NCBI GenBank assembly: GCA_902793325.1
Contig: CADBCY010000023.1
Location: 1-43,415, forward strand
Source: an uncultured Eubacteriales bacterium
GTDB taxonomy: Bacteria > Bacillota > Clostridia > Christensenellales > Aristaeellaceae
Direction of reading: 5' to 3'
Length of the DNA stretch: 43,415 nt
Below, in pieces: positions 1,430 to 18,752 of the stretch. The notes under the pieces are model-generated. The model had not been told where the DNA came from. It ran no database searches and was given only the letters and a program-made list of their open reading frames with translations. Positions within the stretch are counted from its first letter, which is position 1; every line of letters begins with the position of its first letter. The position numbers and the translations under genes are program-made.

Positions 1430-1656
1430 AGCTGAGCCCTCTCCTGTACAGGCAAATCTTCAATGCCATCCGCCAGGAAATCCTCCGTGAACATATCCAG
1501 GCTCTGCATCATCGGTGCCCAGGGATCATTCTTCGGCATCAGGATCACCACGCTGCCGATTCGGTTCACCAGTACCTCGTCCTGATCAAAGCGGCAGTTC
1601 TTGGGCAGGCGCACCGCCTGGCTGCCTCCGTTGCTGAAAATCTTTGCAACCTCCAT
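1426..1656 (-). CDS. vapB: VapB-type AbrB-fold antitoxin
   Basis: The product is 76 residues. The N-terminal half is a swapped-hairpin AbrB/VapB DNA-binding domain (AKIFSNGGSQAVRLPKNCRF). The acidic C-terminal half would wrap the PIN toxin. ATG at 1656 is chosen because AGGAGG lies eight bases upstream; the in-frame GTG at 1665 overlaps that site. The promoter directly upstream carries two perfect palindromes, consistent with autorepression by the VapBC complex, which is known for the family. Confidence 0.88.
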   Translation of the reverse strand: MEVAKIFSNGGSQAVRLPKNCRFDQDEVLVNRIGSVVILMPKNDPWAPMMQSLDMFTEDFLADGIEDLPVQERAQL

Positions 1657-1678
1657 GACGCTCACCTCCTTCTCTTTA

Positions 1679-1772: not shown

Positions 1773-2648
1773 CTACGACAGACATTTTCCGCATCGGCTG
1801 CACCCATTACATGTCAGCCGCATGCCACATTTCTGGCAGTGATCTCCGAAATAAGGCTGATACAACTGGTCTTCCTGAATGGCACAGCCCCAGGTGTCCG
1901 TCAGCCTGAACTCGATGGGTTTCCCCTGAAAGCTCAACCCTGAACGGGCGGCCTGCTCGCTTCGCAGCTTGCCGCTGTGGATGCGATAGGCCTTTCCATC
2001 CTTCACGAAGCAGCTGCCCAGCGAACAGAACACGAAGGTGATATTGTATTCCCGGCATTCGTCGTGCAGCGCCTTGACCCATTCATAATGGCAGGGGCGC
2101 GCTCCGTCATAGCTCTCTCCATCGCATAACACCTGCTCGATCTGTCCGGTCGGCAGAAACTTTGTGATACTGACTGGACCGATGAACGGCGCGCACATGA
2201 TGCCTTTGTGCTTGAAGGGCAGCTCCAGCAGGATCGGAATGCGCTCATCCGCGCGACGCTGGTTTTCACAGGTGACATTGAACATCACATTCTCCCAGCC
2301 ATCGCCCCAATCGCGGGGCAGGCACGCCGCCACTCGCTCCGGGCGCTTGGTCAGCAGAAAGAACTTCACATCCGGACGCTGATGAATGATGTCCCATGCC
2401 TCATCCCGCCAGGGGTCGGCTTCTTCGAGGAAAAAGTCGCTGTTCATGCAGACCCTGAGCATTTCACCGCTTTTAACCTTGTACTGCCCGTTGCGGTCCC
2501 TGCTGAGCGGATAACGGAAGCCGGCCTTCGTTCTATAAATATCCGCCCCATTCCTGCCGCGGCGGGCATCGTTATAGTACATGTAGCAGTTTTGACAGCC
2601 TTCACTGCATTTTACGCAGCCATGCCAGGGGTTCCAGATATCGTGCAA
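1773..2648 (-). CDS. DUF5131 (phage Gp37/Gp68-like) radical-SAM-like protein
   Basis: The product is 291 residues. It begins IWNPWHGCVKCSEGCQNCY; Cys14, Cys18 and Cys21 form the Cx3Cx2C set that binds a 4Fe-4S cluster in radical SAM enzymes. A cysteine-rich C-terminus (CQKCGMRLTCNGCSRCGKC) may bind a second metal or cluster. DUF5131 proteins are frequent on phages and mobile elements, and their reaction is not established. It is the last gene of operon A, 11 bases after hxlR, and the second radical-SAM-type gene on this element. Family assignment is good; substrate is unknown. Confidence 0.82.
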   Translation of the reverse strand: MHDIWNPWHGCVKCSEGCQNCYMYYNDARRGRNGADIYRTKAGFRYPLSRDRNGQYKVKSGEMLRVCMNSDFFLEEADPWRDEAWDIIHQRPDVKFFLLTKRPERVAACLPRDWGDGWENVMFNVTCENQRRADERIPILLELPFKHKGIMCAPFIGPVSITKFLPTGQIEQVLCDGESYDGARPCHYEWVKALHDECREYNITFVFCSLGSCFVKDGKAYRIHSGKLRSEQAARSGLSFQGKPIEFRLTDTWGCAIQEDQLYQPYFGDHCQKCGMRLTCNGCSRCGKCLS

Positions 2649-2659
2649 AGCGCCTCACC

Positions 2660-3055
2660 TCACTCGGTTGCTGTCTCTCCATAGAGCTCTTTTTCATGCT
2701 GAAAGCCCCAGTTCATGATGGCGTAGAACACGGGCAGAAGATCGCGACCCATATCGGTCAGCGAATACTCCACATGTGGCGGGATCTCGTTGAACTGCTC
2801 CCGGCTGATGAGCCCGTCCTCCTCCAACTCTCGAAGGGACTTGGTCAGCATGGTATTGGTGATGCCGGGCAGGTCCTTCTTGAGCTGCCCGAAGCGCACT
2901 GTGTCATAGATGCACATTTCATACATCAGCTGGGATTTCCACCGCCCCTGCAGCATAACCAGCAACGGCGTCACGGGGCAGTTGCCGTCCTTGTTCACGA
3001 TGCCTTTTTTCACATTGACCAGGTATTCCTCATAGCTCATGTATTCATGCTTCAT
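2660..3055 (-). CDS. HxlR-family winged-helix regulator
   Basis: The product is 131 residues, usual for HxlR. The motif CPVTPLLVMLQGRWKSQLMYEM and the following wing (EEDGLISREQFNEIPPHVEYSLTDMGRDL) are clear. HxlR dimers bind short palindromes, and many sense electrophiles or oxidants through an N-terminal Cys, here Cys22. The start at 3055 has GGAGGG upstream and overlaps the helicase stop by 11 bases. It is the only intact regulator in the cargo. Matching palindromes before operons A and B make it the likely controller of both (inference). The decayed gene at 12235 is a paralogue. Confidence 0.88.
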   Translation of the reverse strand: MKHEYMSYEEYLVNVKKGIVNKDGNCPVTPLLVMLQGRWKSQLMYEMCIYDTVRFGQLKKDLPGITNTMLTKSLRELEEDGLISREQFNEIPPHVEYSLTDMGRDLLPVFYAIMNWGFQHEKELYGETATE

Positions 3056-5297
3056 GTTGCTTCCCTCCAAACTTTTTCCAGCCAAGCACTCGCTGTTTCA
3101 TACCCTCCATGTCGAGCACACCATAGGCAAAGCCCTTACGCACCAGCTCCTCCGGCACATATTCATCGTACTTCTCAAACACCGGTACCTCCTTGGGGTA
3201 AACCAGCTCCAGCGCGTCAAAATCTGTTTCTGCTTCCTCGCAGACGATTTCGTAAAACTCCGCCTCACTCACCTGCATGGTAAACTGCATGTAGTACGGT
3301 CGGGAGGGCTGAATCCCCCTGATGCCCAGCCGCTTTCCGCAGCGCAGCTTCAGAAACCGCTCCATAGCGAGAAAAGCATAAGTTCCGACCCATGGGAACA
3401 GGGCCCACATTTTTCCGCCGAGATGGACGAGAGGCCTGTCCGCCATAAGTGATTTCCGGAAGGTCTCCCGCGCGTCGGCCAGACGGCAAACGGCGTGTGG
3501 CATCAGATAGGGGTATTGCTTTTCTTCGCTGAGCACCTGGTACATCCGCTCCAAAATGTGGGTGTGGATATCGCCCGCCACGTCGCCGAAGTAGGCGGGG
3601 ATATTTCCCTTTACCAGCGTACAAAACAGCTCTCTCCGCTTATGATCGACCTCCTCGACCACCCATACTCGGCCCGCAATGGCGATCTTGTCACCGACTG
3701 GAGGGGGCTTTACGATGGTGCCCAACTGCTCCGAGCCGGAGCGAACGGTGTATTCCACGTTCTCCTGAAACACCGCGTAGAACTTGTAGTTATTCACAAT
3801 CCACTCCCCGGCAATCCCGACGATCAGCCCGCCGTTTTCCGTGCGATTGATATGGTCGATCTCCAGCAGATGCCGCAGGAGCAGGCGGTAATCCTCCTGC
3901 GAGATGCGATGAAAACAGCTCAGCGTCAGAACGCGGGAGGCAAGCTCGCCCGGCGTCATCTCACCGTGGGAGGCCAGCGTGCTCATAGTCTGGTGATACA
4001 GCAGACTGTAGGGCAGGCGATCCAGCCGCGGCGGCTCCACAAAGCGCTCCTCAATATAGAGCTGCACCAGGGCGATGCCCTGGATCAGATACCAGGGGAT
4101 ACTGTCGGGCAGCATGGCCCTCGCCTCCTGGTGATCTTCCCGCATGACGAACCACATCTCGGAGGGATCGCCCCGTCGCCCGGTGCGACCCATGCGCTGC
4201 AGGAAGCCCGAGACGGTAAACGGCGCGTCGATCTGAAACGCGCGCTCCAGCCGCCCCACGTCGATGCCCAACTCCAGTGTCGCCGTGGCGCAGACGGACA
4301 TGAGGGAGTCGTCGTCCTTCATCTCCTCCTCGGCGCTCTCGCGGTAAGATGCGGAGAGATTGCCGTGGTGGATGAGAAAGCGGTCGGGCTCGTGATTGAC
4401 CTCGCAGTACTGCCGCAGCTGTTGGCATACGGCCTCGCATTCCTCCCGTGAATTGGTGAACACCAGGCACTTCTTGCCCCGGGTGTGCTCGAAGATATAG
4501 CCGATGCCCGGATCGGCGGCCTTGGGCGCGGTGTCGGTGGGTTCTTCCACAGGCGGGGTTTCCATCGGAACGAGTTTTCCTTCGTCAGCCTGGGGTGCTG
4601 AATTATAATAATGCTCCATGGAAAGCCGCCAGACCTCTTTGCCGCCGTCGAATTTCGGAATGATCGTGCCACGACCGCTGCCCGCCGCCAGAAACTGTCC
4701 CGCCAGCTCCGGGTTTCCGATGGTGGCGGAAAGTCCGATGCGCCGGGGATCACAGCCCGATAGCCTGCACAGCCGCTCGATCAGGCAGAATGTCTGCAGG
4801 CCCCGGTCCGCCCGCAGCAGGGAGTGGATCTCGTCGATAACGATGAAGCGCAGGTCGCCGAAGAGAGTTGGGATCTCCATGTGTTTGTTGATCAGAAGCG
4901 ATTCCAGGGATTCCGGCGTGATCTGCAGAATGCCGGAGGGCTTTTTCAGCAACTTCCGCTTCCTGGACTGGTTGGCGTCTCCGTGCCAGCGGGTCACGGC
5001 GATGTCCTCTTCCTCACACAGCTCGTTTAGGCGTCCAAACTGGTCGTTGATCAGTGCCTTGAGCGGAGCAATATAGAGGACGCCGACCGTTTGGGACGGG
5101 TTTTCATCCAGAAGCGTCAGGATCGGGAAGAAGGCCGCCTCGGTCTTGCCGGAGGCGGTGGAGGCCGTCAGCAGCACATTCTCATCCGTGTTGAAGATGG
5201 CCTCCCCCGCGGCGTTCTGCACCGCCCGCAGGCTCTGCCAGGCGGAGCGGTAAATGTAGTCCTGAATAAAGGGCGCGTAACGGTTAAATACATTCAT
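3045..5297 (-). CDS. DEAD/DEAH superfamily II helicase, Lhr-like (BrxHI-like)
   Basis: The product is 750 residues. Walker A is TASTASGKT (residues 44-52), Walker B is VIDEIHS, motif III is GLSATIGN and motif VI is QRMGRTGRRG. The Lhr-like arrangement and a long C-terminal region fit the helicases that accompany BrxD ATPases in type 2 BREX and related loci. Its start overlaps the ATPase stop as ATGA, so the two are translationally coupled. It probably translocates on nucleic acid under control of its partners. The Lhr/BrxHI affinity is judged from motifs and context. It is shorter than full-length Lhr. Confidence 0.85.
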   Translation of the reverse strand: MNVFNRYAPFIQDYIYRSAWQSLRAVQNAAGEAIFNTDENVLLTASTASGKTEAAFFPILTLLDENPSQTVGVLYIAPLKALINDQFGRLNELCEEEDIAVTRWHGDANQSRKRKLLKKPSGILQITPESLESLLINKHMEIPTLFGDLRFIVIDEIHSLLRADRGLQTFCLIERLCRLSGCDPRRIGLSATIGNPELAGQFLAAGSGRGTIIPKFDGGKEVWRLSMEHYYNSAPQADEGKLVPMETPPVEEPTDTAPKAADPGIGYIFEHTRGKKCLVFTNSREECEAVCQQLRQYCEVNHEPDRFLIHHGNLSASYRESAEEEMKDDDSLMSVCATATLELGIDVGRLERAFQIDAPFTVSGFLQRMGRTGRRGDPSEMWFVMREDHQEARAMLPDSIPWYLIQGIALVQLYIEERFVEPPRLDRLPYSLLYHQTMSTLASHGEMTPGELASRVLTLSCFHRISQEDYRLLLRHLLEIDHINRTENGGLIVGIAGEWIVNNYKFYAVFQENVEYTVRSGSEQLGTIVKPPPVGDKIAIAGRVWVVEEVDHKRRELFCTLVKGNIPAYFGDVAGDIHTHILERMYQVLSEEKQYPYLMPHAVCRLADARETFRKSLMADRPLVHLGGKMWALFPWVGTYAFLAMERFLKLRCGKRLGIRGIQPSRPYYMQFTMQVSEAEFYEIVCEEAETDFDALELVYPKEVPVFEKYDEYVPEELVRKGFAYGVLDMEGMKQRVLGWKKFGGKQHEA

Positions 5298-6622
5298 ATC
5301 GTAAACTCCACAAAGCCCGCGTCCGTCTCATCGGAGACAGCTTCTGATTTGGCGTAGCTGAATTCTTCGGAGGAGAGCAGCTCGGTAATGTTCATTTTCG
5401 GATTCTGGTACAGCAGATCCAGCAGCTCGATGAAGTCCCGGATCACCTCGCGGGGCGTGATGTTCTGATCTGCCCCGATGCGCCCGTACTCGATCTTGAT
5501 GAAGTTCACTAAATCCTCCGTAGTGACGCTGCGTGGATAGCCGTACAGCCCTGCGTGCATTTCGGCGAGCTTTTCGCACAGCACCAGCATCTCCTCGGCG
5601 GTCAGCGGCTCCAATCGGATCACCGGCGCCAGTAAATCCCTCGCGCCAGGCTTGGAGAAGCGTCCCTCCGCCAGACGGGAGCGCAGCGCTTCGTAGCTGT
5701 AGATGCCGCGCCGCTTGTCCTCCAAGGCCTGGGGCGTGGCCCCCATGAGGATGCCGAGGTACTTCGCCTTGCCCTGGAGAGTGTCGTTGTACATGGTCAG
5801 CATTTTCTCGTAGTTATACTGCCTGGTGATGGCATTGGGGATCTTGTAGATGTTCACCAGCTCGTCGATCATGATGAACATGCCCGTATATCCCGCCAGA
5901 CGGAAGAAAGCGGCAAAAAGTTTGAGATAGTCGTACCAGTCGTCGTCGGTGATGATGATGTTGATGCCCAGGGCTTCCCTGGCCTCGCTTTTCAGGGCGT
6001 ATTCGCCCCGGAACCAGCGCACCACCTTCGCCTTCCGCTCATCGTCGCCCTCCACATAGGCGCGGTAGTAGGCAGAAAGGAGCCTGGCGAACTCAAAGCC
6101 GTGCACCAGCTCGCTGACCGACGCCGTCACGGCGTAGATCTTCCTGTCCGTGGCGGCAGCCAGCGCCGGATCATCGGGAGAAAGCCCGGTCTCCTGTATG
6201 GCCTCATTCTGCACCGCGCTGATCCAACGATCCAGGATCAGTGTCAGCGCGCCGCCCTCCGGCTTCGTTTTCGTGGACAGGTTGGAGATCAGCTCCCGGT
6301 AGGTGGCAAGCCCCTGTCCCTTCGTTCCCTGCAGACGCCGCTCGGGCGAGAGGTCGGCGTCCGCCACAATAAAGCCCCGGTCCATCACATAGTTGCGGAT
6401 GGTCTGCAAGAGAAAGCTTTTGCCGCTGCCGTAGCGCCCGACGATGAAGCGGAAGGACGCGCCGCCCTCCGAGACGATATCCACGTCGTGCAGCAGGGCT
6501 TCGATCTCGTTCTTTCTGCCTACGGTAATATAGGGCAGGCCGATGCGCGGCACCACGCCGCCCTTCAAAGAGTTCAGCACCGTCTGCGCGATGCGCTTCG
6601 GCACCTTCTTGTGTTCATCCAT
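5294..6622 (-). CDS. BrxD-like (DUF2791) P-loop ATPase
   Basis: The product is 442 residues. Walker A GRYGSGKS is at residues 62-69, followed by FLLQTIRNYVMDRGFIVADA. Walker B is FIMIDELVNIYK. This matches the ORC/STAND-like ATPases annotated as the BREX ATP-binding protein BrxD. ATG at 6622 is preferred to the TTG at 6637 because GGAGG lies eight bases upstream; the start overlaps the TerB_N stop. In BREX the family acts with helicase and methylase components, but no methylase or PglZ gene is present here. The locus is therefore not canonical BREX. Confidence 0.85.
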   Translation of the reverse strand: MDEHKKVPKRIAQTVLNSLKGGVVPRIGLPYITVGRKNEIEALLHDVDIVSEGGASFRFIVGRYGSGKSFLLQTIRNYVMDRGFIVADADLSPERRLQGTKGQGLATYRELISNLSTKTKPEGGALTLILDRWISAVQNEAIQETGLSPDDPALAAATDRKIYAVTASVSELVHGFEFARLLSAYYRAYVEGDDERKAKVVRWFRGEYALKSEAREALGINIIITDDDWYDYLKLFAAFFRLAGYTGMFIMIDELVNIYKIPNAITRQYNYEKMLTMYNDTLQGKAKYLGILMGATPQALEDKRRGIYSYEALRSRLAEGRFSKPGARDLLAPVIRLEPLTAEEMLVLCEKLAEMHAGLYGYPRSVTTEDLVNFIKIEYGRIGADQNITPREVIRDFIELLDLLYQNPKMNITELLSSEEFSYAKSEAVSDETDAGFVEFTI

Positions 6623-8435
6623 TGCCTGTTCCTCCAAGGAGTTCCTTTAGTTCTTCAATATAGTCTTCCACCAGCATCAACCGATCCTCCTCACAGAGAA
6701 GCACGGTATCGCCGATCTCATCAAAGAGAGCCTCGTTGATGGCGTCAGCAGTCATGCTCGGCATCAGATGATGGGCATTCATGATTCCCGCTGCGTCCCG
6801 GCCCTCCAATAGGGTCCGAAGAATCTGAATCTGTATGTGATCCAGCGGTAGATCGCACGTTTCGCCCTTTGCCGCGGTTGGGATAGCTTCTTCAATGTCC
6901 TCGATTTCGTCCTCCGTCAGCAGGCTTTCCCGCGTCATGGCAGCATCCCGGCGAATCCGCTCCAGGCCGGAAAGGTCGATGGTGATTTTCGGCCTGGACG
7001 CTTCCATCGCGGCCTTCCTGTCCGCTTCGATCACCGCTTCAATACAGGGAATCGCCCACGCGTCCTCCGGCTTTTCCCTGAGATAACGCCCCGTCTTCAA
7101 ATAGCGGCGCAGCCGTGCGTCTGTCTCATGCAGAAAGCCCTGCAATCTGACCTTGTCATAGGACAGGGATTCATAGGCGCGCACCGTCCAAATCCCGTCT
7201 TTGCACCGAAAACCGCGGCACGCGTTGAGCACATAATCCCTGTCCTTCGGTCGTTCCTGCTCATAATAGACAGCGTTGGACAGCGGATACCAGCGGCGGG
7301 TCTTCCTTTCTCCGAAGCAGAGGGCAAACAGACCCTTTTCCTGCCAGCGGCAGGCAACGGCGGAGCGCCATGCCTCACTGAACAGGCGTTGCCCCCGCGC
7401 GGGGTCAAACGCGATGACCGGCGATTCGGCAATCTTCTTTCCGCCGAACACGCAGAGGGCTGAAAATACATCTTCCGCTGGATGGGCTTCCGGCTCTTTC
7501 AGTACGGCAATGGCCGCGTCCTGCGCCATCATTTCCGGGTCGGCATACTCCCGGGCAAGCTCCGGCGGCAGGTCGTTCACCACGGCGTATTCCAGCATCC
7601 AGCGGCGGAGGTTGCCCCGCATGCGCTGATCGCCGATGCCCGAATCCAAGTATCCGGCTTCAAAGGCCCGCAGCTTTTTCAGAACGTCTTCCGGGGAGTT
7701 CGCACCGATGCCATTCAGCAGCTCGTAGAGATAGATGAAGGCCACGGATGTGGGAATCGGCTGGAAGTCCCCCCGGCGTACATTGGCGCGCCAGGTAAAG
7801 TATCCGCGAAGCTGCCTCGCCGTCAGGTCGTGATAGGTGGGAAAGTAGCGAACAAAGTCGCCGCCTGACCATGGACAGTCATCCTCATAATCCTCCATGA
7901 ACACCGCCTGCCGGTAGAAGTTCCTGGCTCTGGATTCGACGGATTCCCTGCCGTATTCAAACAGGCGGCGCATTTCGCGCAGCTTCTCCGGCAGCGGTTC
8001 CCTCGCAGGTCGGTAGTCGCTGCCGGAAAAGGGCAGGGCCGTCTCCTGATAGCCCATCCCGTGGGTTGGGCTATGGGAATCAAGGACGATGGTGAAGCCC
8101 CGAGGCGTTTCGGAGCTTATCGCCTGATCCAGCAGATGAAAGACGATCTGCGGCTCAGTTCTTTCGTCGAAGCAAATGCCGACCCATTTGGCCCCGTGCA
8201 TTCGGATTGGCGGCGACAGGTATGGCCGCTGGATGTGCTCAAAACCGCCGCATTTCAGGTCGCAGCGCTGGATCTCTGTGCCGGTATCAGTATCCCATTG
8301 CCGCATCAGCAGGGCGACCCATTTCCCGGTCTGGGGGTGACAGAGGACAGAGAAACCCGGAAAGTCCGTCCACTTATGCTGTTCCCGCATCTGGTATTTC
8401 TCATTGGCGTATGCCGTCAGCTCTGAAAGCTCCAT
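6615..8435 (-). CDS. TerB_N-domain protein with a YjbR-like N-terminus
   Basis: The product is 606 residues. Residues 1-115 resemble the MmcQ/YjbR fold (TDFPGFSVLCHPQTGKWVAL, then DLKCG and HGAKWVGICF). Residues from about 165 match TerB_N, with the signature YFPTYHDLTARQLRGYFTWR and YLYELLNGIG. The C-terminal part is helical and acidic (TEDEIEDIEEAIP) and probably corresponds to TerB_C. TerB-type domains were linked by comparative genomics to stress and phage-response systems. It is the first gene of operon A, with GGAAGGGGG before ATG. It may recruit or sense for the ATPase-helicase pair (inference). Confidence 0.8.
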   Translation of the reverse strand: MELSELTAYANEKYQMREQHKWTDFPGFSVLCHPQTGKWVALLMRQWDTDTGTEIQRCDLKCGGFEHIQRPYLSPPIRMHGAKWVGICFDERTEPQIVFHLLDQAISSETPRGFTIVLDSHSPTHGMGYQETALPFSGSDYRPAREPLPEKLREMRRLFEYGRESVESRARNFYRQAVFMEDYEDDCPWSGGDFVRYFPTYHDLTARQLRGYFTWRANVRRGDFQPIPTSVAFIYLYELLNGIGANSPEDVLKKLRAFEAGYLDSGIGDQRMRGNLRRWMLEYAVVNDLPPELAREYADPEMMAQDAAIAVLKEPEAHPAEDVFSALCVFGGKKIAESPVIAFDPARGQRLFSEAWRSAVACRWQEKGLFALCFGERKTRRWYPLSNAVYYEQERPKDRDYVLNACRGFRCKDGIWTVRAYESLSYDKVRLQGFLHETDARLRRYLKTGRYLREKPEDAWAIPCIEAVIEADRKAAMEASRPKITIDLSGLERIRRDAAMTRESLLTEDEIEDIEEAIPTAAKGETCDLPLDHIQIQILRTLLEGRDAAGIMNAHHLMPSMTADAINEALFDEIGDTVLLCEEDRLMLVEDYIEELKELLGGTGNG

Positions 8436-8467
8436 GGACGCACCCCCTTCCTGTGAACAGTATAATT

Positions 8468-8522
8468 ATTATACCATATCTTAATTTGAAATCAAGTACG
8501 CAGAAATAACATACTTGGTATG
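8468..8522 (-). promoter_or_regulatory. Operon A promoter with HxlR-type operator
   Basis: On the minus strand TTGATT (8490-8495) and TATAAT (8468-8473) are 16 bases apart. Just upstream is the palindrome CATAC-TTG-GTATG (8510-8522). The 19-bp block 8490-8508 (aatcaagtacgcagaaata) is identical to 12180-12198 at operon B. The rest of the 8436-8601 gap holds no gene. Confidence 0.8.
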
Positions 8523-8601
8523 ATTTGTGATACCTGGATAATTATAAATCCCGGCCATATTAATTCCATGACCGGGATCGCATGCTTTACGCGAAATGCG
8601 G

Positions 8602-9474
8602 TTATTTCTTCGCTGACTTCCTGACCTCTTCATGGTAGAAGTAATTGACAACTACCGGCGGCCGGCCAAAATCAGAACGATGCTGGTCGTTGTCCCGCAG
8701 ATACGGCATGCCTTCCTGTGCCGTAAAGGCCTGCATCTCCTCATCCAATGCCGTCCAGTAGGCACGGGACTTATTGGAGTAGATATCGTGATACAGCCCG
8801 TCCAGCTCCGGATGCTTTTCGTGTATCCATTCTAGAATCCGAACACGGTAGTCGCCCCGCAGGTTCAGATTCTCCAGCCACACCAGATTGCACTGTTTTT
8901 TGGTCCTTTCAATGATGGCCTTCACATCCGTAATGCCGGGGAAGATGGGCGAAATGAAGCAGGTCGTCTGCACTCCTGCATCGTAGAAGGCCTTCATCGC
9001 CGCAAGTCTGCGCTCGATGCTCACGCCCCGGTCCATCTCCCTGCGGAAATCCTCATCCAGGGTGTTAATGGAGAAAGAAACTCTCGCATTGGGGAATGTT
9101 TTGATCAGATCCAGGTCGCGTAGAACAAGATCGGATTTGGTGGCAATGCTGATGCTGATGCCGCTGCCCTGAAGCTGCTCAAGCAATGCGCGGGTGCGCT
9201 GGTATTTGGCCTCACAGGGCTGATAGCAATCGGTCACGGAACCGAGAAACGCTTCCTTTCCGGCGTATTTCTCCGGATGCTTGATCTCCGGCCAGTACTT
9301 CACGTCAATAAACTCTCCCCATGGCTGGGGATGGTTGGTAAAGCGCTTCATGAATGAGGCGTAACAGTATTTGCAGGCATGGGCGCAGCCCACATAGGGG
9401 TTGACGGAATAGTCTGATACCGGAAGATTGGATTTCGTCATCACGCTCTTGACTGGAATTTCTTGTATCTTCAT
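8602..9474 (-). CDS. SPL-family radical SAM protein (mobile-pair type)
   Basis: The product is 290 residues. The radical SAM cluster motif is YVGCAHACKYC (Cys30, Cys34, Cys37). SVTDCYQPCE, SIATKSDLVLRDLDL and VSFSINTLDE follow, as in spore-photolyase-like SPL proteins. It closely recalls the family named radical SAM mobile pair protein, usually found as two adjacent radical SAM genes with a MarR-type regulator. Here only one member is present and it is last in operon B. The reaction is unknown; a role in spore DNA repair is unlikely given the context. Confidence 0.83.
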   Translation of the reverse strand: MKIQEIPVKSVMTKSNLPVSDYSVNPYVGCAHACKYCYASFMKRFTNHPQPWGEFIDVKYWPEIKHPEKYAGKEAFLGSVTDCYQPCEAKYQRTRALLEQLQGSGISISIATKSDLVLRDLDLIKTFPNARVSFSINTLDEDFRREMDRGVSIERRLAAMKAFYDAGVQTTCFISPIFPGITDVKAIIERTKKQCNLVWLENLNLRGDYRVRILEWIHEKHPELDGLYHDIYSNKSRAYWTALDEEMQAFTAQEGMPYLRDNDQHRSDFGRPPVVVNYFYHEEVRKSAKK

Positions 9475-9487
9475 GTATTTCTTCCTC

Positions 9488-9952
9488 TCATAGCTTCATG
9501 TAATCGGACATATCCGTAAAGCCAATCTCGTGATAGAGCCGCTTTGCCATTCCGGAGCTTTCCAGATAGATTTTCTCAGTTCCTCGCTGTTTTGCGTCGT
9601 CAATCAGGTACTCCACGATCTTTCTGCCGATCCCTTCCCCGCGCAGCTCCGGCAAGGCGTAGATGTTCATGAGATACCCGTTGGTGCCAGTGGGGTTATC
9701 CGGCGAGGGCATCTCACGCTGATAGCAGATCCCACCGCAGCCAACGATCCTGCCGGTTTCACCGTCGATGGCAAAGCAGGCCGTGTGTGTGCCGTCCGCC
9801 AAATGGTGACGGTAATAGGCCTCGTTGTTTCTGCGGATGTCTGAACGGTCCTCCTGTTCGCCCGCAGGAAAAACCTCGGCCAGCACCCGCATCCGCCATT
9901 CCATCAGGGTATCCAGATCCGCAAGACTCGCTTTTTTAACCGATACGCTCAT
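9488..9952 (-). CDS. GNAT-family N-acetyltransferase
   Basis: The product is 154 residues. The acetyl-CoA motif A is ALPELRGEGIGRKIVEYLI (R/Q-x-x-G-x-G/A type). The end, KIYLESSGMAKRLYHEIGF, is typical of GNAT motif B. The start lies 17 bases inside the adenylation gene, so the genes are coupled. It would acetylate an amine, possibly a product or precursor of the neighbouring adenylation enzyme; that link rests only on gene order. Confidence 0.87.
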   Translation of the reverse strand: MSVSVKKASLADLDTLMEWRMRVLAEVFPAGEQEDRSDIRRNNEAYYRHHLADGTHTACFAIDGETGRIVGCGGICYQREMPSPDNPTGTNGYLMNIYALPELRGEGIGRKIVEYLIDDAKQRGTEKIYLESSGMAKRLYHEIGFTDMSDYMKL

Positions 9953-11429
9953 AGGCCTGCCCTTCCTTCATTACCACCGGCATCCTCGCCATATCCGGCT
10001 TGCCGTTGGTGTTCAGCGGGATCTGCGGCATTTTCACGATAAACTCCGGAATCATGAAGCTCGTCAGGTTTTCGGAGAGCTCCTTTCGCACCTGGGAGAC
10101 CTTCAGGTCCTTCTTGCTCGGAACCACATAGGCGATCATGTAGGACAGGCCTTCTTCATCCGTAAAGGGGCGAACGATGGCCTGCTCCACGCCGCTGCAC
10201 TGGTAGAGCTTGGACTCCACCTCCATGACCTCGACGCGCTTGCCATAGATCATGATCTGCGTGTCCTTGCGGTGCAGAAAAGCGATGTTGCCATCCGGCA
10301 AAATATAGCCGAGATCACCGCTGCGATACATCCGGCCCCCGTCGGGAAGCGAGACAAACGCCTTGTTTTCCTCATCATGGTCGCCGGTGTAACCGTTGGA
10401 TACGCCCCCGCCATAGATGCAGATCTCTCCGGTCTCTCCCTTCGGCAGTTCATTTCCCGCGCTGTCCAGAATCTTGATTTCCGTGCCAAGAACCGGATGC
10501 CCGATGGGATAGGTTCCGTCCTCCAGAACCTGCCCATCGCGGCAGCGGTAGTAGGAGGCGCAGACCGTGGTCTCGGATGGGCCGTAAGTGTTGTATACTT
10601 CGGCCTTGTCCAGCAGATGATCCACGTGATGGCCGCGCAACACATCGCCGCCGCTGATAAGGAGGCGCAGTGATGACGGGATCGAATCCAGATGGTTCAT
10701 TTCCGCCAGCAGATACGGGAAACCAGAAAGCATGGTCACGCCATGCCGTTCCACAAAGGCCATCAGGCTGCGGATATCCTTCTTGTCATCCTCAGATGGA
10801 ATGGCCAGTGCCGCACCGTTGAGCAGGCTCGTGAAGACCTCCTCGACGAAGATGTCGAAGGAGCAAACGGAATACTGGAGCATCGTGTCCCCACGCTTCG
10901 GATGAAATTCGTCCTCAAATGCCCGCACATAATGGCAGACATTGCGATTGGTGACGGATACGCCCTTCGGCCTGCCGGTCGTGCCGGATGTATAGAGGAT
11001 ATAGGCAAGGTCGTCCGGTTTTTGGGTATAGACTCTGCTCTTGCTTCCGGGGGCAGCGGTGCAGATGGAACAGTCGGAATAGATCTGCTCAAAGCCTTCC
11101 AGCTTCGAGACATACTGCATTTCCGTCAGCACAAAATCGACGTGGGCTTCCTCCATCATGTAATGGATCCGCCCGGTTGGGAAGCTGGGCTCGGCGGGAA
11201 TGTACATTGCGCCGGTTTTCAATACTGCCAGGATAGAGGCGATCATCTCAGCCCGGTGCCGCATCACGATACCCACTGCACGGGTCTTATCCGGAAAGCT
11301 GTCTGCGATCATGTCCACCATGGCAGACAAATCCATAAAGGTCAGAGTGCGTTTGTTTTCGATGATTGCCGGGGCATCCGGCTGCTGCTCCACCATAGCA
11401 GTAAACATGCTATAAATTGTATTATCCAT
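9936..11429 (-). CDS. Stand-alone amino-acid adenylation (AMP-binding) enzyme
   Basis: The product is 497 residues. ATP-binding core AYILYTSGTTGRPKGV, NTYGPSETTVCASY, MYRSGDLGYI and the C-terminal lysine region NTNGKPDMARMP are all present. They mark the ANL superfamily, closest to NRPS adenylation domains or DltA. No carrier-protein domain is attached or encoded nearby. ATG at 11429 is chosen because AAAGGAGAA precedes it. It would activate an amino or aryl acid as the AMP ester and pass it to an unknown acceptor. The neighbouring esterase and acetyltransferase suggest a small pathway. Substrate cannot be called with confidence. Confidence 0.87.
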   Translation of the reverse strand: MDNTIYSMFTAMVEQQPDAPAIIENKRTLTFMDLSAMVDMIADSFPDKTRAVGIVMRHRAEMIASILAVLKTGAMYIPAEPSFPTGRIHYMMEEAHVDFVLTEMQYVSKLEGFEQIYSDCSICTAAPGSKSRVYTQKPDDLAYILYTSGTTGRPKGVSVTNRNVCHYVRAFEDEFHPKRGDTMLQYSVCSFDIFVEEVFTSLLNGAALAIPSEDDKKDIRSLMAFVERHGVTMLSGFPYLLAEMNHLDSIPSSLRLLISGGDVLRGHHVDHLLDKAEVYNTYGPSETTVCASYYRCRDGQVLEDGTYPIGHPVLGTEIKILDSAGNELPKGETGEICIYGGGVSNGYTGDHDEENKAFVSLPDGGRMYRSGDLGYILPDGNIAFLHRKDTQIMIYGKRVEVMEVESKLYQCSGVEQAIVRPFTDEEGLSYMIAYVVPSKKDLKVSQVRKELSENLTSFMIPEFIVKMPQIPLNTNGKPDMARMPVVMKEGQAYERIG

Positions 11430-11449
11430 TCTCGTTCTTCTCCTTTTTC

Positions 11450-12127
11450 TTACATCAATATCGCCTTGATGCCCTTTGCGCTTCGGAGCGCGGCATCTGT
11501 GAAGTGATTCCCGGGATTCAGTTCCCAAGTCACATCAAGACCGAGCTGCATATAATGTGAGACGATCTGTTCGGTATTGTCCTGCACCGTTTTCAGAAAA
11601 GCGTTTCTTGTTTTAGCCTCTTTATCCCCGAGAGACAGATACAGTTTATCCGGGCGTTTTTTCATTTTGTGAGTGAGTACATATTCCCTGAATTCCGGAA
11701 ACCACAGAGATCCGGACATACTCGCCACTCGGTCAAACGCGTCGCACCGATACATGGCATACAGCGCAAACAGCCCAGCCAAGGAATAACCCGCGATTCC
11801 AATAGAGCGGGGACTGCCCAGGAGCATCGACATGGCTTCCGGCAGGATCCTCGTCAGCAACAGGTTCAAATAGTCATCCGCGCCACCTGTGCATGGGGTA
11901 TCGTTCTCCGTAATTGGTGGACAGTACCATGGGGTCATATCATGATCCCATTTCAGATTTCCGACAACCAAAAGATGACAGTCAGGCGTCCCAATTTCTT
12001 CCATTGCCTGAATGACAGAAGCGCCTTCACCGGAATAATTGTTCAGTATGATAAGCGGAGCATCTGCCTGCTCCCCACAGTACAAGGTTGCCTTCCCTCT
12101 ATCGCATTCAAAGGCCTTCTTCTCCAT
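11450..12127 (-). CDS. Alpha/beta-hydrolase esterase (Fes/EsteraseD-like)
   Basis: The product is 225 residues. The nucleophile elbow IAGYSLAGLFALY gives Ser115, and a late His in LNPGNHFTDA fits the catalytic triad. The compact size and the VASMSGSLWFPEF segment resemble the enterobactin-esterase/EsteraseD group. It is the first gene of operon B, 20 bases before the adenylation gene, with GGGGG upstream of ATG. It could hydrolyse an ester or thioester made by the adenylation enzyme, acting as editing or release enzyme (inference). No signal peptide is seen, so it should be cytoplasmic. Confidence 0.8.
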   Translation of the reverse strand: MEKKAFECDRGKATLYCGEQADAPLIILNNYSGEGASVIQAMEEIGTPDCHLLVVGNLKWDHDMTPWYCPPITENDTPCTGGADDYLNLLLTRILPEAMSMLLGSPRSIGIAGYSLAGLFALYAMYRCDAFDRVASMSGSLWFPEFREYVLTHKMKKRPDKLYLSLGDKEAKTRNAFLKTVQDNTEQIVSHYMQLGLDVTWELNPGNHFTDAALRSAKGIKAILM

Positions 12128-12157
12128 ATTTACCCCCTGACAATTTAATGTACATTA

Positions 12158-12212
12158 ATTATACTGAGTCCAAGGAATAAATCAAGTACGCAGAAATATC
12201 GTACATAGTACG
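12158..12212 (-). promoter_or_regulatory. Operon B promoter with HxlR-type operator
   Basis: On the minus strand TTGATT (12180-12185) and TATAAT (12158-12163) are 16 bases apart, exactly as at operon A. The palindrome CGTAC-ATA-GTACG (12200-12212) takes the place of CATAC-TTG-GTATG, with both arms changed in step. An additional TTAATGTACATTAA palindrome overlaps the -10. Confidence 0.8.
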
Positions 12213-12234
12213 TTGCGTGATACCGAGGCGCAAG

Positions 12235-12430
12235 ATGAAAGAGACAAGGAAGTACGCGTCCTACGAAGAGTATTCTGTAAAGGTCAGGGACGGCATCGTG
12301 ACAGATCAGGGCAACTGCCCCGCCATGCCCTTGCTTCTGATGCTCCAGGGCAAATAGAAAATCCAGGTGCTGTATGAGTTCTGCATTCATAATCATATTC
12401 GATTTGAAGAGCTTAAGAGGGAGTTTCAGA
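12235..12430 (+). pseudogene. Decayed hxlR paralogue
   Basis: The plus strand reads MKETRKYASYEEYSVKVRDG, then CPAMPLLLMLQGK, then TAG, then KIQVLYEFCIHNHIRFEELK. It aligns end to end with the intact HxlR at 2660-3055. The TAG at 12355-12357 replaces the conserved Trp codon of GRWK/GKWK, and similarity stops about half way. The gene points away from operon B, with the shared operator between them. This is the usual arrangement for an autoregulated HxlR and its target. The 3' half was lost where it meets the excisionase-like gene. Confidence 0.82.
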
Positions 12431-12437
12431 TGAATGC

Positions 12438-12650
12438 TCAGGAACTCCCATTGAGCCACTGATGAAAGGCTTCCTTCGGGATGACGATCCTGTTGCCGAT
12501 TCTTATAGCTGGGAAATCCTTGCTGTGGGTCAGGCGGTATGCTTCATTCTTCCCGATGCCGAGCATCATCCTGATCTCATCGACGGTATAAACGCATTTC
12601 TTTGCGTTTTGTTCTTGATTCAGTTTCGTTACCATATTCATTCTCTCCAT
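12438..12650 (-). CDS. Excisionase-like helix-turn-helix protein
   Basis: The product is 70 residues from ATG 12650, which has AGGAGG upstream; an in-frame ATG at 12677 is less likely. The core YTVDEIRMMLGIGKNEAYRLTHS, FPAIRIGNRIVIPKEAFHQW is the MerR-like fold of Xis and other excisionase/HTH_17 proteins. It would direct excision by bending the element ends or act as a repressor. It follows vapE by 26 bases and is separated from the integrase by about 4.4 kb. Confidence 0.82.
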   Translation of the reverse strand: MERMNMVTKLNQEQNAKKCVYTVDEIRMMLGIGKNEAYRLTHSKDFPAIRIGNRIVIPKEAFHQWLNGSS

Positions 12651-12676
12651 GTGTTCCTCCTGTAATACTTGTTTCA

Positions 12677-14113
12677 TTAATTCTCGTGTGCCTCCGGGAA
12701 CGGCACGTCCGAAGTATCCGTGACCGGGACAAAGCCCTGCTCAAGCATGGACTGCTGCTTATCTGGGTTTGAAACGTCTCGTTTACGTTCTTGTTTACAA
12801 TCCTCGTCCCGTATCCATGACCGCTGCTGGCCATAGATTGGGAAGCGGTGCTGCGGACCGACCTTCCAGCCCTGAATGCTGTAACGCATGATCTCACCGA
12901 TCTCGCTGCTCTCAATCCGCGTAGGCTCGCCAAAATTGTGCAGCGCTTCCCGGTACAACTGGGTGGTGCAGACATAGTCGCCTTCGTATTCATCCAGGTA
13001 CGCCTGAATGAGACCTGCGTTGGTATCCTCAGGCATGAATTCCTGCCGGAGCTGGTCGAGCTGGCGCGTGATTTCAGGTGAGAAGGTCATGGTGTAGTCC
13101 CTTCGCTTGAAGATATCCATGGCTTCCGCCCACATCTGATTGATGTACTCCCTGGACGCTGCTTCGTCTTCCAGAATGTGCACCTCTGCGTTGTCCAGAT
13201 CTACCGTAACCGGCAGGAATCTGCGGTTGCCGGTATGGTCGAAGGGGAGACATTTCTGCCTATTGGTGGTTGCGCCGAACACGCACTGACGGGGACGATC
13301 GGCGGGATAGACCGCGTAGGGATCGCGGTACACATCGGACTGCCGGGAGACAAATGCCTTCGTTTCCTCCGCCCGCTTACCGTTCATCATGGCGAGCATT
13401 TCCGGCATCTCTATGATCCAATGACCATTGATCTTTTCATAGATTCGACTGCTCTTGAAGTCCACAAGATCGTCGGTGAACCAGTCGTCCTGGATCGCCA
13501 GGAAGCGGAAGAAGGTCGATTTACCGACGCCCTGCCCGCCGATCAGTGTCAGCACATACTCGCACTTGCAGCCCGGCCAGAACACCCTTTGGAGCGCGCC
13601 CATCATGTAGGTCTTGAGACAGAGGTACGTCAATTCATCTTCCGGAGCGCCGAGGAAGTGGCGCAGGGCGTGCCGGAGCCGTTCCTGTCCATCCCATTCC
13701 AGGCCGTTCAAGTAATCCCGGATGGGATGGAAGCTGTCGTTGTTCGCCGCCATGGAGACCGCCCGCCGGCACAGGCTATCGTTCCGAAGATCATAATTCT
13801 GTGCCATGTAGCTGAGGATGTTGTCCATGTCGTTGTCCGTCAGCGCCGCGCCGCTGCGCCGCCAGGGGACTTCCTTGCAAATCACCATCCGGCAGCTGAG
13901 CAGGTTCAGCCGTACCAGCCCACGCAGGAAGCTGTCCTCCTGAACCGCCAGCATGCAGTTCTCAATAGTCTGCGTGACTTTGCCCTTCTCGTTCCGGTGC
14001 AGCTGTTCCCGGACATAATCTACCGGCACCATTTCCGCTGACAGCTTGTCCATCTTCTCTTTGCTGATGTTTTTCCAATCGCCGTTCAATTCGCGTGATA
14101 ACCTCCCTTCCAT
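12677..14113 (-). CDS. VapE-family P-loop helicase (virulence-associated E)
   Basis: The product is 478 residues. Walker A IGGQGVGKSTFF is near residues 191-202, and Walker B-like HWIIEMPEMLAM is clear. The VapE signature TKAFVSRQSDVYRDPY and VFGATTNRQKCLP(F)D..GNRRFLPV follows. VapE proteins are replicative superfamily III-like helicases of satellites and integrative elements and act with a primase. The annotated start at 14113 lies 152 bases inside the CHC2 gene and lacks a good ribosome site. TTG at 14089, downstream of GGAAGGGAGG, or ATG at 14053 are alternatives. Confidence 0.85.
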   Translation of the reverse strand: MEGRLSRELNGDWKNISKEKMDKLSAEMVPVDYVREQLHRNEKGKVTQTIENCMLAVQEDSFLRGLVRLNLLSCRMVICKEVPWRRSGAALTDNDMDNILSYMAQNYDLRNDSLCRRAVSMAANNDSFHPIRDYLNGLEWDGQERLRHALRHFLGAPEDELTYLCLKTYMMGALQRVFWPGCKCEYVLTLIGGQGVGKSTFFRFLAIQDDWFTDDLVDFKSSRIYEKINGHWIIEMPEMLAMMNGKRAEETKAFVSRQSDVYRDPYAVYPADRPRQCVFGATTNRQKCLPFDHTGNRRFLPVTVDLDNAEVHILEDEAASREYINQMWAEAMDIFKRRDYTMTFSPEITRQLDQLRQEFMPEDTNAGLIQAYLDEYEGDYVCTTQLYREALHNFGEPTRIESSEIGEIMRYSIQGWKVGPQHRFPIYGQQRSWIRDEDCKQERKRDVSNPDKQQSMLEQGFVPVTDTSDVPFPEAHEN

Positions 14114-14693
14114 AGAGATACAGGTCGATCTGGTCGTCCAGTGTACCTGATTGCAGGGTGTTCAGGTAGAACTGGATGACCGCCTTTCTCTCCGTGATCC
14201 TGTCAAGGGCATTGCGTTCCGAGGCTTCCGATCTCCGTCGTATGCACGCCCGCTCCTGTTCATCCAGGATCGCATAATAACTTTTGAGCAGGTCTATGCT
14301 GCGTGTCCGCCATTTTTCAAACTGCCGCTGGGTCTTCTGAATGCGCCATTCATGGCGCTGCTCTGGCGTGGGCGGTGATTTGTCTTTTGTGATTGGAGAT
14401 GATGATTTTGAAAGGGTCTGGTCTTCTATGGGAATGCCAAAGTCGTTGGCAATGAGCTTTGCTGCCTCGAGCTTATCAACGTCGAGGTAGGTAGCGACGA
14501 AATCAATCACGTCTCCTGAGGCACGGCAGTCGAAGCAGTAATACCTATCGCTGATACGCATGTTGGGAGCGTTGCCTGAATGGAAGGGGCAGCAGGTCAT
14601 CCCTTTCTCGTCAATCGCCAACCCCAGATGCTCCGCCACCTGTCTCGTGGTCACCGCCTGCTTCACGGTCTTGAATATGTTGCTGTTTGCGAT
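13962..14693 (-). CDS. CHC2 zinc-finger primase-like protein
   Basis: The DnaG-type zinc finger is CCPFHSG...YYCFDCRASGDVIDF. The rest is charged and coiled-coil-like, with no TOPRIM domain, so this is a separate zinc-finger subunit. It probably recognises the element origin for the VapE helicase. The conserved N-terminus NIFKTVKQAVTTRQVAEHLG extends beyond the GTG at 14666. The only codon well placed after GGAAGGGAGG is ATC at 14691-14693, eight bases downstream, so a rare AUC start is proposed; GTG at 14666 is the conventional alternative. The 3' end overlaps vapE in another frame. Confidence 0.78.
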   Translation of the reverse strand: MANSNIFKTVKQAVTTRQVAEHLGLAIDEKGMTCCPFHSGNAPNMRISDRYYCFDCRASGDVIDFVATYLDVDKLEAAKLIANDFGIPIEDQTLSKSSSPITKDKSPPTPEQRHEWRIQKTQRQFEKWRTRSIDLLKSYYAILDEQERACIRRRSEASERNALDRITERKAVIQFYLNTLQSGTLDDQIDLYLYGREVITRIERRLEKHQQREDGQAVSGNGAGRLCPGTAAPEREGQSHADY

Positions 14694-17058: not shown

Positions 17059-18207
17059 TCATGTCGCCTTGCCGGTCTTTTTGAACTGCTGAATCGCCTC
17101 TGTCACCCGGTCGATGGTCTCCTTGTGGGAATCGTCGAACATGTGGGTATAGATGCCGCTGGTGACGGCGGTGGAGCCATGGCCCAGCGCCTTGCTGATG
17201 TTGAACATCGGTACGCCCAGGTCGTTGGCGATGGAGGCGAAGCTGTGGCGCAGGTCATGGAGCCGTATCTTTTTCAGGCCGTTGTCCTTGAGGAACTTCG
17301 TGAACAGCTCGGAAATATAGTTCGGCCGGTAAGGCTTGCCGTCTTCCCAGCAGAGGATGAAGCCGGTTTCCATGTAATCGTCCTTGAGCATCCGCTTGTT
17401 CTCCTCCTGCTTTTCACGGAGAGCAAGCAGCAGCTCGCGCACGTCGTCGTTCATGGCTTCCTTGCGATAGGAGGACCTGGTCTTGGGCTCGTCGATCAAC
17501 AGCTGCCCGCCCGCCATCGTCATGGAGCGGCGAATCTCAAACAGATTCCGCTCGAAGTCGATGTCCTGCCACATCAGACCGCAGATCTCTTCGCGGCGCA
17601 GGCCATAGTAGCCCGCCAGCTTGACCACGATCTCGAGGCGATTTCCCTTGACCTTCTCGAAGAGATCGTGCAGTTCCTCGGCGGTGTAGATCGTGTATTG
17701 TATGGTCTCCTTCTTCGGCGCGGAGACGATGCGCATGGGGTTCTTCCGCAGCTTGTCCTCCAACACCGCCGCCTGGAAGATCTGATTGAGCACGTCGTGG
17801 TGCTTGCGCAGCGAGTTCTGGGACAGGGCTTTCGGCCCTGAGAGCTTCTTCTTGTAATACTCGCGGATGTCCGCCGCTGTGACCTTCTGCAGGGGCTTGC
17901 CGCCCAGGGAGGGAATCAGGTGCCGCTCCACCAGGTTCTTGTAGCCGTGGTAGGTAGTCGCGCGTACATTGGGCTTTGAGATGTTCTCCAGCCAATAGCG
18001 CATCCACTCACCCAGGCTGTCCCTGGTCGGCTCGACGACCTCTTCATTCGCCTTGTCCGCCTCAAACTGCTTGAGCGCCCGGACGGCATCCGCCTTGGTC
18101 GTGAATGTCTTGGTGGACTTCACGCCGTTGCCGTAATGAAAGGTGACGTAATACCGCTGGCGGTCGTCATCATAGGCGATGTTTTTTGCAACTTTCATCC
18201 TGGCCAT
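17059..18207 (-). CDS. int: Tyrosine-recombinase integrase
   Basis: The product is 382 residues. An Arm-DNA-binding N-terminus (residues 1-60) is followed by a SAM-like core-binding domain (65-160). The catalytic domain has Arg204 (YYGLRREE), Lys242, His317 and Arg320 (LHDLRHSF), His343 (LGHG) and the nucleophile Tyr353 (GIYTHMF). It would recombine the 25-bp core in the ssrA 3' end. The start at 18207 has AAAGGGG nine bases upstream. It lies next to attR, as usual for ssrA integrases. Confidence 0.95.
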   Translation of the reverse strand: MARMKVAKNIAYDDDRQRYYVTFHYGNGVKSTKTFTTKADAVRALKQFEADKANEEVVEPTRDSLGEWMRYWLENISKPNVRATTYHGYKNLVERHLIPSLGGKPLQKVTAADIREYYKKKLSGPKALSQNSLRKHHDVLNQIFQAAVLEDKLRKNPMRIVSAPKKETIQYTIYTAEELHDLFEKVKGNRLEIVVKLAGYYGLRREEICGLMWQDIDFERNLFEIRRSMTMAGGQLLIDEPKTRSSYRKEAMNDDVRELLLALREKQEENKRMLKDDYMETGFILCWEDGKPYRPNYISELFTKFLKDNGLKKIRLHDLRHSFASIANDLGVPMFNISKALGHGSTAVTSGIYTHMFDDSHKETIDRVTEAIQQFKKTGKAT

Positions 18208-18399: not shown

Positions 18400-18424
18400 G
18401 TGGTGGAGCCGAGGGGGGTCGAAC
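18400..18424. repeat. attR: 3' end of ssrA
   Basis: This is identical over 25 bp to attL at 776-800. It comprises the 3' strand of the tmRNA acceptor stem, the encoded CCA and part of the T-arm. Confidence 0.9.
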
Positions 18425-18752
18425 CCCTGTCCGAAGACCAGAAGACCAGAGCTTCTCCGAGCGCAGTCTGCGATTTAACGTTCCCTCCGCCGGACTCCCA
18501 CAGACGGGATTCCGGCATCAGTAGCTTCATAAAATCCGGCCGGCCGCAAAGCTTAAGTCGGCTGGTTCCCTGCTACTATGACGTCGATGGCCTGCGCGGC
18601 AGGACGCTCAGGGTCGACGGTCGCCGATTAAGCGGCGACAGGAGAATAACTGTTAGTGTCAGTTCATTTTTGATTTCCCGTTTTCAGGCGGTACAGGGCC
18701 GCCGCTCGCTTCTCTGTCCCTCCGCATCCCCGTCGAAACCAAATACGGCCCC
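18401..18752 (-). ncRNA. ssrA: tmRNA (transfer-messenger RNA)
   Basis: The 5' end GGGGCCGTATTTGGTTTCGA, followed by CGGGGATGCGG, is the conserved tmRNA start. The 3' end GGGGTTCGACCCCCC...CGGCTCCACCA is the tRNA-like T-arm and acceptor with encoded CCA; the ends pair as GGGGCCG with CGGCTCC. The internal open frame ends GAC ACT AAC AGT TAT TCT, then CCT GTC GCC GCT TAA, giving a tag ending DTNSYSPVAA. With SmpB it frees stalled ribosomes and marks proteins for proteolysis. It lies 18 bases after smpB. The 5' boundary is estimated from pairing. Confidence 0.95.

Follow-up and report, generated by a model that had tools for sequence, protein, structure and literature searches.

In the accessible text of PMC6943732, HypR, YodB and CatR, MarR/DUF24 redox regulators of Bacillus subtilis, are described as sensing oxidants and electrophiles through an N-terminal cysteine. 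The Shango defence system is presented in PMC10250203 as a set of three genes, and HxlR is not mentioned in the accessible part of that source. Little is known about what turns defence systems on; the regulators of defence islands treated in the available portions of PMC9122601 and PMC12255303 are WYL-domain proteins and RptR, and HxlR, MarR and Shango are absent from the available main text of both. The DNA analysed here, hereafter the window, is an entire contig of 43,415 nucleotides (CADBCY010000023.1) from an uncultured Eubacteriales bacterium (GCA_902793325.1; assembly of 3.23 Mb in 67 contigs, 95.06% complete). On a mobile element within it, a Shango operon that also encodes an HxlR protein (operon A) and an operon containing an amino-acid adenylation gene (operon B) each follow a copy of one promoter cassette. 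It is probable, from sequence comparisons, that both cassettes are HxlR (DUF24) operator-promoters and that the HxlR of the Shango operon controls operons A and B.

The two cassettes

The cassettes and hxlR genes in the window are the following, O1 to O3 being inverted repeats described below.

8460-8533 (-), cassette A, promoter and putative HxlR operator of operon A, identified from sequence, matrix score 42.0: O1 8460-8474, -10 8468-8473, -35 8490-8495, O2 8496-8514, O3 8518-8533
12150-12223 (-), cassette B, promoter and putative HxlR operator of operon B, identified from sequence, matrix score 44.3: O1 12150-12164, -10 12158-12163, -35 12180-12185, O2 12186-12204, O3 12208-12223
2660-3055 (-), intact HxlR, gene 4 of operon A: Pfam HxlR 1.9e-27, 95.4 bits against a cut-off of 20.8
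12235 to about 12427 (+), dead hxlR remnant, divergent from operon B, recognized by comparison with the intact homologue in genome G175

A first-pass annotation of this DNA had proposed that the two operons share a promoter geometry, and this is borne out: both have a minus-strand TTGATT-N16-TATAAT, which a promoter scan also lists, and the blocks 8489-8534 and 12179-12224 agree without gaps at 38 of 46 positions, where Markov-1 simulations of 8000-13000 (n=60) gave a best 46-mer match of 31 (mean 28.2). The identical block that it described is present, although it measures 20 bp (8489-8508, equal to 12179-12198) and has the -35 box inside it rather than ahead of it. The intervening 3.7 kb, which had been taken for unrelated coding DNA, is operon B itself, and the central palindrome (8510-8522 and 12200-12212) consists of the right half of O2 and the left half of O3, its symmetry being lost elsewhere. 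The idea that the arms of this palindrome change in step finds no significant covariation among other cassettes: of 104 distinct cassettes, 44 have a first-arm T at the tested position, which cannot pair with a partner C or T, and Fisher's p is 0.30 among the 60 with A or G and 0.18 among the 35 of 48 close-HxlR cassettes with A or G.

Apart from these two sites, the window scores -25.3 or below with the matrix, and a third copy was not found in the 3.23-Mb assembly, in which a 16-mer with up to 2 mismatches and a 41-mer with up to 3 gave two matches each. The hxlR of operon A is the only intact HxlR gene found in the assembly with Pfam, and a protein search of the assembly adds only the dead copy, at 12247-12426, which has an in-frame TAG and has lost its C-terminal half relative to the G175 homologue. 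The first description, of one intact hxlR in operon A and a dead copy beside the operator of operon B, is confirmed.

The 46-nt similarity, and the presence of a dead hxlR at one copy only, would also fit a recent local duplication of one promoter without a common regulator, the likeness then being plain homology. Such an origin is highly improbable. In an ungapped comparison over 76 nt with 28 other, hand-chosen cassettes, in which indels are not handled, the best matches of cassette A were two Shango cassettes (65/76 and 63/76) and that of cassette B was the esterase cassette of G175 (65/76), against 52/76 between A and B. Because each is closer to cassettes of its own operon type elsewhere, local duplication was rejected, and each cassette seems, from these comparisons, to have arrived with its own operon. 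The retention of the motif in at least 119 stretches, 97 of the matches listed having HxlR (see below), also argues against duplication.

The other genes of the two leftward operons (A, 8435 to 1773; B, 12127 to 8602) are these.

6615-8435 (-), operon A, SngA of Shango (TerB_N / TerB_C): PADLOC SngA 1.3e-74, Pfam TerB_N and TerB_C
5294-6637 (-), operon A, SngB of Shango (BrxC/BrxD-type ATPase): PADLOC SngB 2.4e-192, Pfam BrxC_BrxD
3045-5297 (-), operon A, SngC of Shango (BrxHI-like DEAD helicase): PADLOC SngC 7.2e-283
1773-2648 (-), final gene of operon A, DUF5131 protein with a radical-SAM-like CxxxCxxC in its sequence: Pfam DUF5131 1.5e-40
11450-12127 (-), gene 1 of operon B, esterase-like alpha/beta hydrolase: Pfam Esterase 1.1e-07
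9936-11432 (-), operon B, stand-alone amino-acid adenylation domain enzyme: TIGR01733 342.4 bits, cut-off 317.4
9488-9952 (-), operon B, GNAT acetyltransferase: Pfam Acetyltransf_1 2.5e-15
8602-9474 (-), operon B, Radical SAM mobile pair protein B: TIGR04470 429.2 bits, cut-off 410

Adjacent TerB-like, ATPase and helicase genes, all three matched by PADLOC, identify Shango. The hxlR reading frame opens at 3085, with an ATG at 3055 that overlaps the end of sngC, and the DUF5131 gene starts 11 nt past the HxlR stop codon; from this spacing we infer that both belong to the Shango operon. The DUF5131 protein stays below the cut-off of the model for Radical SAM mobile pair A (TIGR04471, 25.3 bits against 355), which a 229-aa protein of locus L109 passes with 404.6 bits. 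A second SngB-like ATPase (49%) is encoded in the same genome at G000:C1:7769-9001 (L203), with a SngC-like helicase and without a cassette.

Recurrence of the cassette

The DNA-only pattern CAAGTACGCA-N10-A-N4-GTAY-N8-ATAC matched at least 119 stretches in public bacterial and archaeal genomes, where about 4 were expected by chance across the collection. The 119 stretches counted here and below are among the matches listed and were all analysed; in three pairs, the 200 nt around the cassette do not differ. An HxlR gene was found in 97 of them, divergent and adjacent in 78, downstream on the driven strand in 16 and outside both bins in 3. By eye, the recurrent first driven proteins have nitroreductase-, FMN reductase-, alcohol dehydrogenase-, thioredoxin- and Cu-ATPase-like starts, and genes of these kinds are the usual company of HxlR genes. 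That company and the 97 of 119 stretches with HxlR together indicate that the cassette is at root an HxlR-linked operator, general and not special to this element. A pattern scan of viral contigs found no cassette.

Driven genes were sought by tblastn on the driven strand within each stretch, which does not imply operon membership, using a query set of Shango, the adenylation enzyme, GNAT, esterase, radical SAM pair A/B, DUF5131, UvrA-like, RarA, flavin reductase and HxlR proteins. At least one of these was present in 62 of the 119 stretches and none in 57. Shango genes stand behind the cassette in seven (L044, L056, L059, L078, L142, L143 and L145) and a flavin-reductase-like gene in 28, and hxlR is often found among adenylation genes behind the cassette (e.g. 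L061, L081, L095, L099 and L134). The consecutive adenylation, GNAT, HxlR, radical SAM B and DUF5131 genes of L134 unite gene types found at the ends of operons A and B.

Some other arrangements recur. The radical-SAM pair A and B follows a flavin-reductase-like gene in 13 of the 119 stretches (e.g. L040, L083, L109 and L112), with hxlR usually divergent. A UvrA paralogue lies repeatedly behind the cassette (L258:8811-11315, L259:5314-7827, L263:5227-7734, L037, L049, L080, L110, L124 and L128); that of L258 reaches 710.6 bits with TIGR00630, under the cut-off of 729.8, and in G1034 and G1041 the UvrA-like cassette gene and the HxlR operon are on separate contigs. A RarA/MgsA-like AAA+ protein comes straight after HxlR (L065:2626-4020) or the esterase (L081:6978-8000) in cassette-driven operons.

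Closer to the window, a family-wide 16-mer scan of 300 genomes with one mismatch gave 15 places in 12 genomes, the window's own genome included, against 4 matches of the backward pattern used as control. The window's two places aside, distal half-sites are present in four (L003, L004, L008 and L012); nine other matches were dropped as chance. The stretch L018, around L008, was left out of the counts because it ends ahead of any driven gene.

The cassette and HxlR also occur together in samples drawn by protein, some of which fall on the same records as the DNA scan (L098/L216, L145/L017, L059/L019 and L066/L029). SngB relatives were found at 31 places in 28 of 391 class genomes, and 27 of these places were compared, the window and three fragments being left out. 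Two of the 27 have a cassette (L183, score 37.8, and L184, 23.6), and the same two have an HxlR gene or remnant. The other 25 score negative, the best of 108 shuffled controls reaching -0.4; two of them are partial, L186 being without SngA on its contig and L185 without its downstream side. The adenylation gene is present in 7 of the 391 class genomes, 3 with HxlR and cassette and 4 with neither. A protein search in the order gave five other HxlR relatives (42-57% identity). Next to four of their genes stands a clear cassette (scores 32.9-53.2), one of these loci being on the same record as L066 from the DNA scan, and next to the remaining gene a variant cassette (12.6). With the 97 stretches above, the co-occurrence in the SngB and adenylation samples largely supports, at the level of sequence, the shared HxlR regulon that had been proposed.

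Paired operons were examined in 29 genomes, from 30 handles picked by hand to represent Shango, adenylation and radical-SAM loci. As contig and site coincide in G806 and G1056, at most 28 of the 29 are distinct; HxlR was looked for in the extracted stretches of these genomes only. Two cassettes precede genes of the set in 8 of the 29 (G175, G736, G1034, G1036, G1041, G1044, G1051 and G1052), the second of G736 having been found by the matrix and not the pattern, and G1044 being L062 plus L095. Left uncounted were second sites of another operator type (G253, G1035 and G1053) and weaker sites with 3 mismatches (G1050, G1051, G1052 and G736).

In G736, a Shango-HxlR operon is divergent from esterase-AMPbind-GNAT genes, with one cassette each (scores 4.7 and 37.8); HxlR was found solely where the Shango operon ends, and no divergent hxlR accompanies the cassette of the esterase operon. 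In G670, a single cassette lies between SngA and a divergent esterase gene, and an adenylation gene was not found at that locus. In G175, Shango is behind a cassette on one contig, off which the operon runs, and the esterase gene, with an intact divergent hxlR, is on another. Cassettes are thus common to Shango and the esterase gene in G736 (with adenylation genes), G670 and G175, and others stand before UvrA-like, radical-SAM or DUF5131 genes.

The tandem layout of the window is repeated in G1036, in which a cassette with Shango-HxlR-DUF5131 is followed by a cassette with a UvrA-like gene. One HxlR with two cassettes is seen also in G736 and G1036. The second cassette of G1036 keeps esterase and divergent hxlR remnants, and these, like the dead divergent hxlR of operon B, would fit separate control, with HxlR running operon A and cassette B a relic since the death of its own hxlR. 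We regard this as unlikely: cassette B scores as high as cassette A (44.3 versus 42.0) and keeps O1 to O3, the second cassette of G1036 still precedes a long, open UvrA-like gene, and the esterase operon of G736 has its cassette without a divergent hxlR.

Operator anatomy and predicted control

Three inverted repeats built of RTAY-type half-sites recur in the cassettes, with symmetry centres at 19, 57 and 77.5 in their own frame: O1 around and over the -10 box, O2 abutting the -35 box and O3 upstream. The search pattern itself imposes part of the symmetry seen in O2 and O3; O1 is not covered by it. Both arms of O1 contain TA in 40 of 55 close-HxlR cassettes versus 1 of 36 distant-HxlR cassettes, and the presence of an inverted repeat over the -10 box suggests repression. 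Another type of operator, in which CAAGTACGATTTTT precedes GATAC and GGTATC half-sites, was seen at L256 (G253:C31:16575), G1035:C29:31277 and G1053:C16:2052, and is perhaps that of another HxlR paralogue.

The HxlR of operon A falls in the HxlR / DUF24 family, its winged-helix domain scoring over the Pfam cut-off. A tree was built from the 98 distinct sequences among 105 HxlRs (17 of the 98 labelled outside Bacillota). In it, a 19-row clade with support 99/96 contains 5/5 Shango-operon HxlRs, 9/9 internal to adenylation operons, 2/2 from hxlR-first operons and 3/6 divergent ones, these three adjoining esterase or radical SAM B. This supported clade points to one lineage for the HxlRs of Shango operons and, within the tree, for those of most adenylation operons. 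The cysteine in NCPVT of the operon A protein aligns with the CPV cysteine of YybR (PDB 4a5m), which we take to be HypR, and lies ahead of the first domain helix, as in the HypR/YodB type. Of the 98 distinct HxlRs, 86 have a cysteine followed by proline or alanine among their first 45 residues; the 19 members of the clade all have CP.

The same operator stands before both operons, and the shared sequence, the linkage to HxlR, the single lineage, the recurrence and the finding of one HxlR with two cassettes together argue for shared HxlR control. The HxlR of operon A would then control its own operon (Shango, hxlR and DUF5131) and the esterase/adenylation/GNAT/radical-SAM operon, binding O1 to O3 and repressing by occupation of O1 and O2. 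Reaction of the N-terminal cysteine with an electrophile or oxidant would make HxlR let go, in the way described for HypR, YodB and CatR. The location of hxlR inside operon A would give negative autoregulation, and the decay of the divergent hxlR of operon B may have been tolerated because the operon A copy would act in trans.

Several observations weigh against shared control of this kind. By profile, 22 of the 119 stretches have no HxlR; seven of these extend for no more than 400 bp on the divergent side, and two more, L131 and L149, hold a short HxlR piece detected by tblastn. Four genomes of one genus have adenylation-GNAT-esterase genes without HxlR and without a cassette, so the adenylation module can live without HxlR. 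The first-pass annotation had named the occurrence of the two operons apart, with unrelated upstream DNA, as evidence against its proposal; they do so occur, in these four genomes and at Shango loci, in places where no HxlR was seen. In G736, the cassette on the Shango side reaches a score of no more than 4.7 (best shuffled control -0.4), and in G670 the HxlR is broken and the cassette still present. The divergent HxlRs of L080 and L098/L216 (one locus), beside adenylation operons, lie outside the clade, in a tree that rests on an alignment of only 125 columns. Finally, O2 and O3 are upstream of the -35 box, a position also fit for an activator, and B. subtilis HxlR is said, in the title of a cited reference, to be a positive regulator.

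We infer that the effect of HxlR on the cassettes is repression, and activation is the main rival to this. HxlR would in that case activate both operons: RNA polymerase would be recruited through O2 and O3, which span roughly -35 to -72 relative to a start assumed to lie about 7 nt after the -10, once HxlR is modified, and hxlR in operon A would provide positive feedback. The reported role of B. subtilis HxlR and the imperfect -35 hexamers, of which TTGATT is the commonest (15 of 55 close-HxlR cassettes), would suit this. However, O1 over the -10 box in 40 of the 55 would block polymerase, and promoters with a spacer of 16-18 in 54 of 55 and a -10 box matching TATAAT at 5 or 6 of 6 positions in 51 of 55 do not look activator-dependent. 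Activation has perhaps one chance in a few, and repression by a thiol-sensing HxlR is preferred.

The element and related systems

The two operons are the cargo of a 17.6-kb element bounded by a 25-bp direct repeat (776-800 and 18400-18424), with the tmRNA gene (18401-18752 (-)) as insertion site. An integrase-like ORF, named by eye, lies at 17059-18207 (-), and a VapE-like protein (12677-14113) and a DnaG-zinc-finger-like protein (13962-14666) are encoded within. At the left end, a PIN-like ORF (1031-1429 (-)) with a small AbrB/VapB-like ORF before it (region 1031-1660 (-)) looks, by eye, like a VapBC toxin-antitoxin pair; the PIN-like ORF has no PADLOC match.

A wider reading, tentative and somewhat doubtful, is that of a mobile, mix-and-match genome-integrity regulon, mainly in Clostridia, in which one thiol-sensing HxlR lineage and its operator would control Shango, UvrA-like, RarA/MgsA-like and photolyase-like radical-SAM genes and the adenylation/GNAT/esterase module. 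If this is so, the inducer of Shango would be electrophilic or genotoxic stress, within a DNA-damage programme, instead of a signal specific to phages, and the product of the adenylation module would be a small molecule linked to the same stress, unless the module serves to detoxify such a molecule. The association of Shango with a redox-type HxlR, through an operator that is searchable by sequence, would offer a testable class of inducers, and the partner genes (UvrA-like, RarA-like and radical SAM) may give clues to the function of Shango.

Regulation by HxlR is known, as is Shango; their union through a traceable operator was not found in the open-licence literature, in which no paper with both Shango and HxlR was found and none on the 'radical SAM mobile pair'. 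Searches of that literature for HxlR with phage-defence, defence-island or UvrA found no link of HxlR to defence in the text available; the accessible parts of the sources mention HxlR only in a reference (PMC12724294), a regulon table (PMC3616900) and an expression table (PMC8617998), without a defence link.

The WYL regulators (BrxR/CapW) and RptR of defence islands resemble the system described here in being DNA-binding regulators that travel with a defence system, but belong to protein families other than HxlR. Shango itself is represented by PADLOC matches to SngA, SngB and SngC, and differs here in being followed by hxlR and DUF5131 in one operon. The formaldehyde-responsive activator HxlR of B. 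subtilis is of the same family, and the operon A protein matches its structure (PDB 7bzd) at 4.2e-19. In formaldehyde-type HxlR, a lysine two residues past the sensing cysteine is the crosslink partner; the operon A protein reads C-P-V-T, without that lysine. HypR, YodB and CatR share with it the HxlR domain, the N-terminal Cys-Pro and a flavin-reductase-like kind of target, which is found behind the cassette in the 28 stretches noted above. Unlike those regulators, the HxlR of this element sits within its own target operon, and its putative regulon, carried by a mobile element, includes a phage-defence system together with radical-SAM genes and an adenylation operon.

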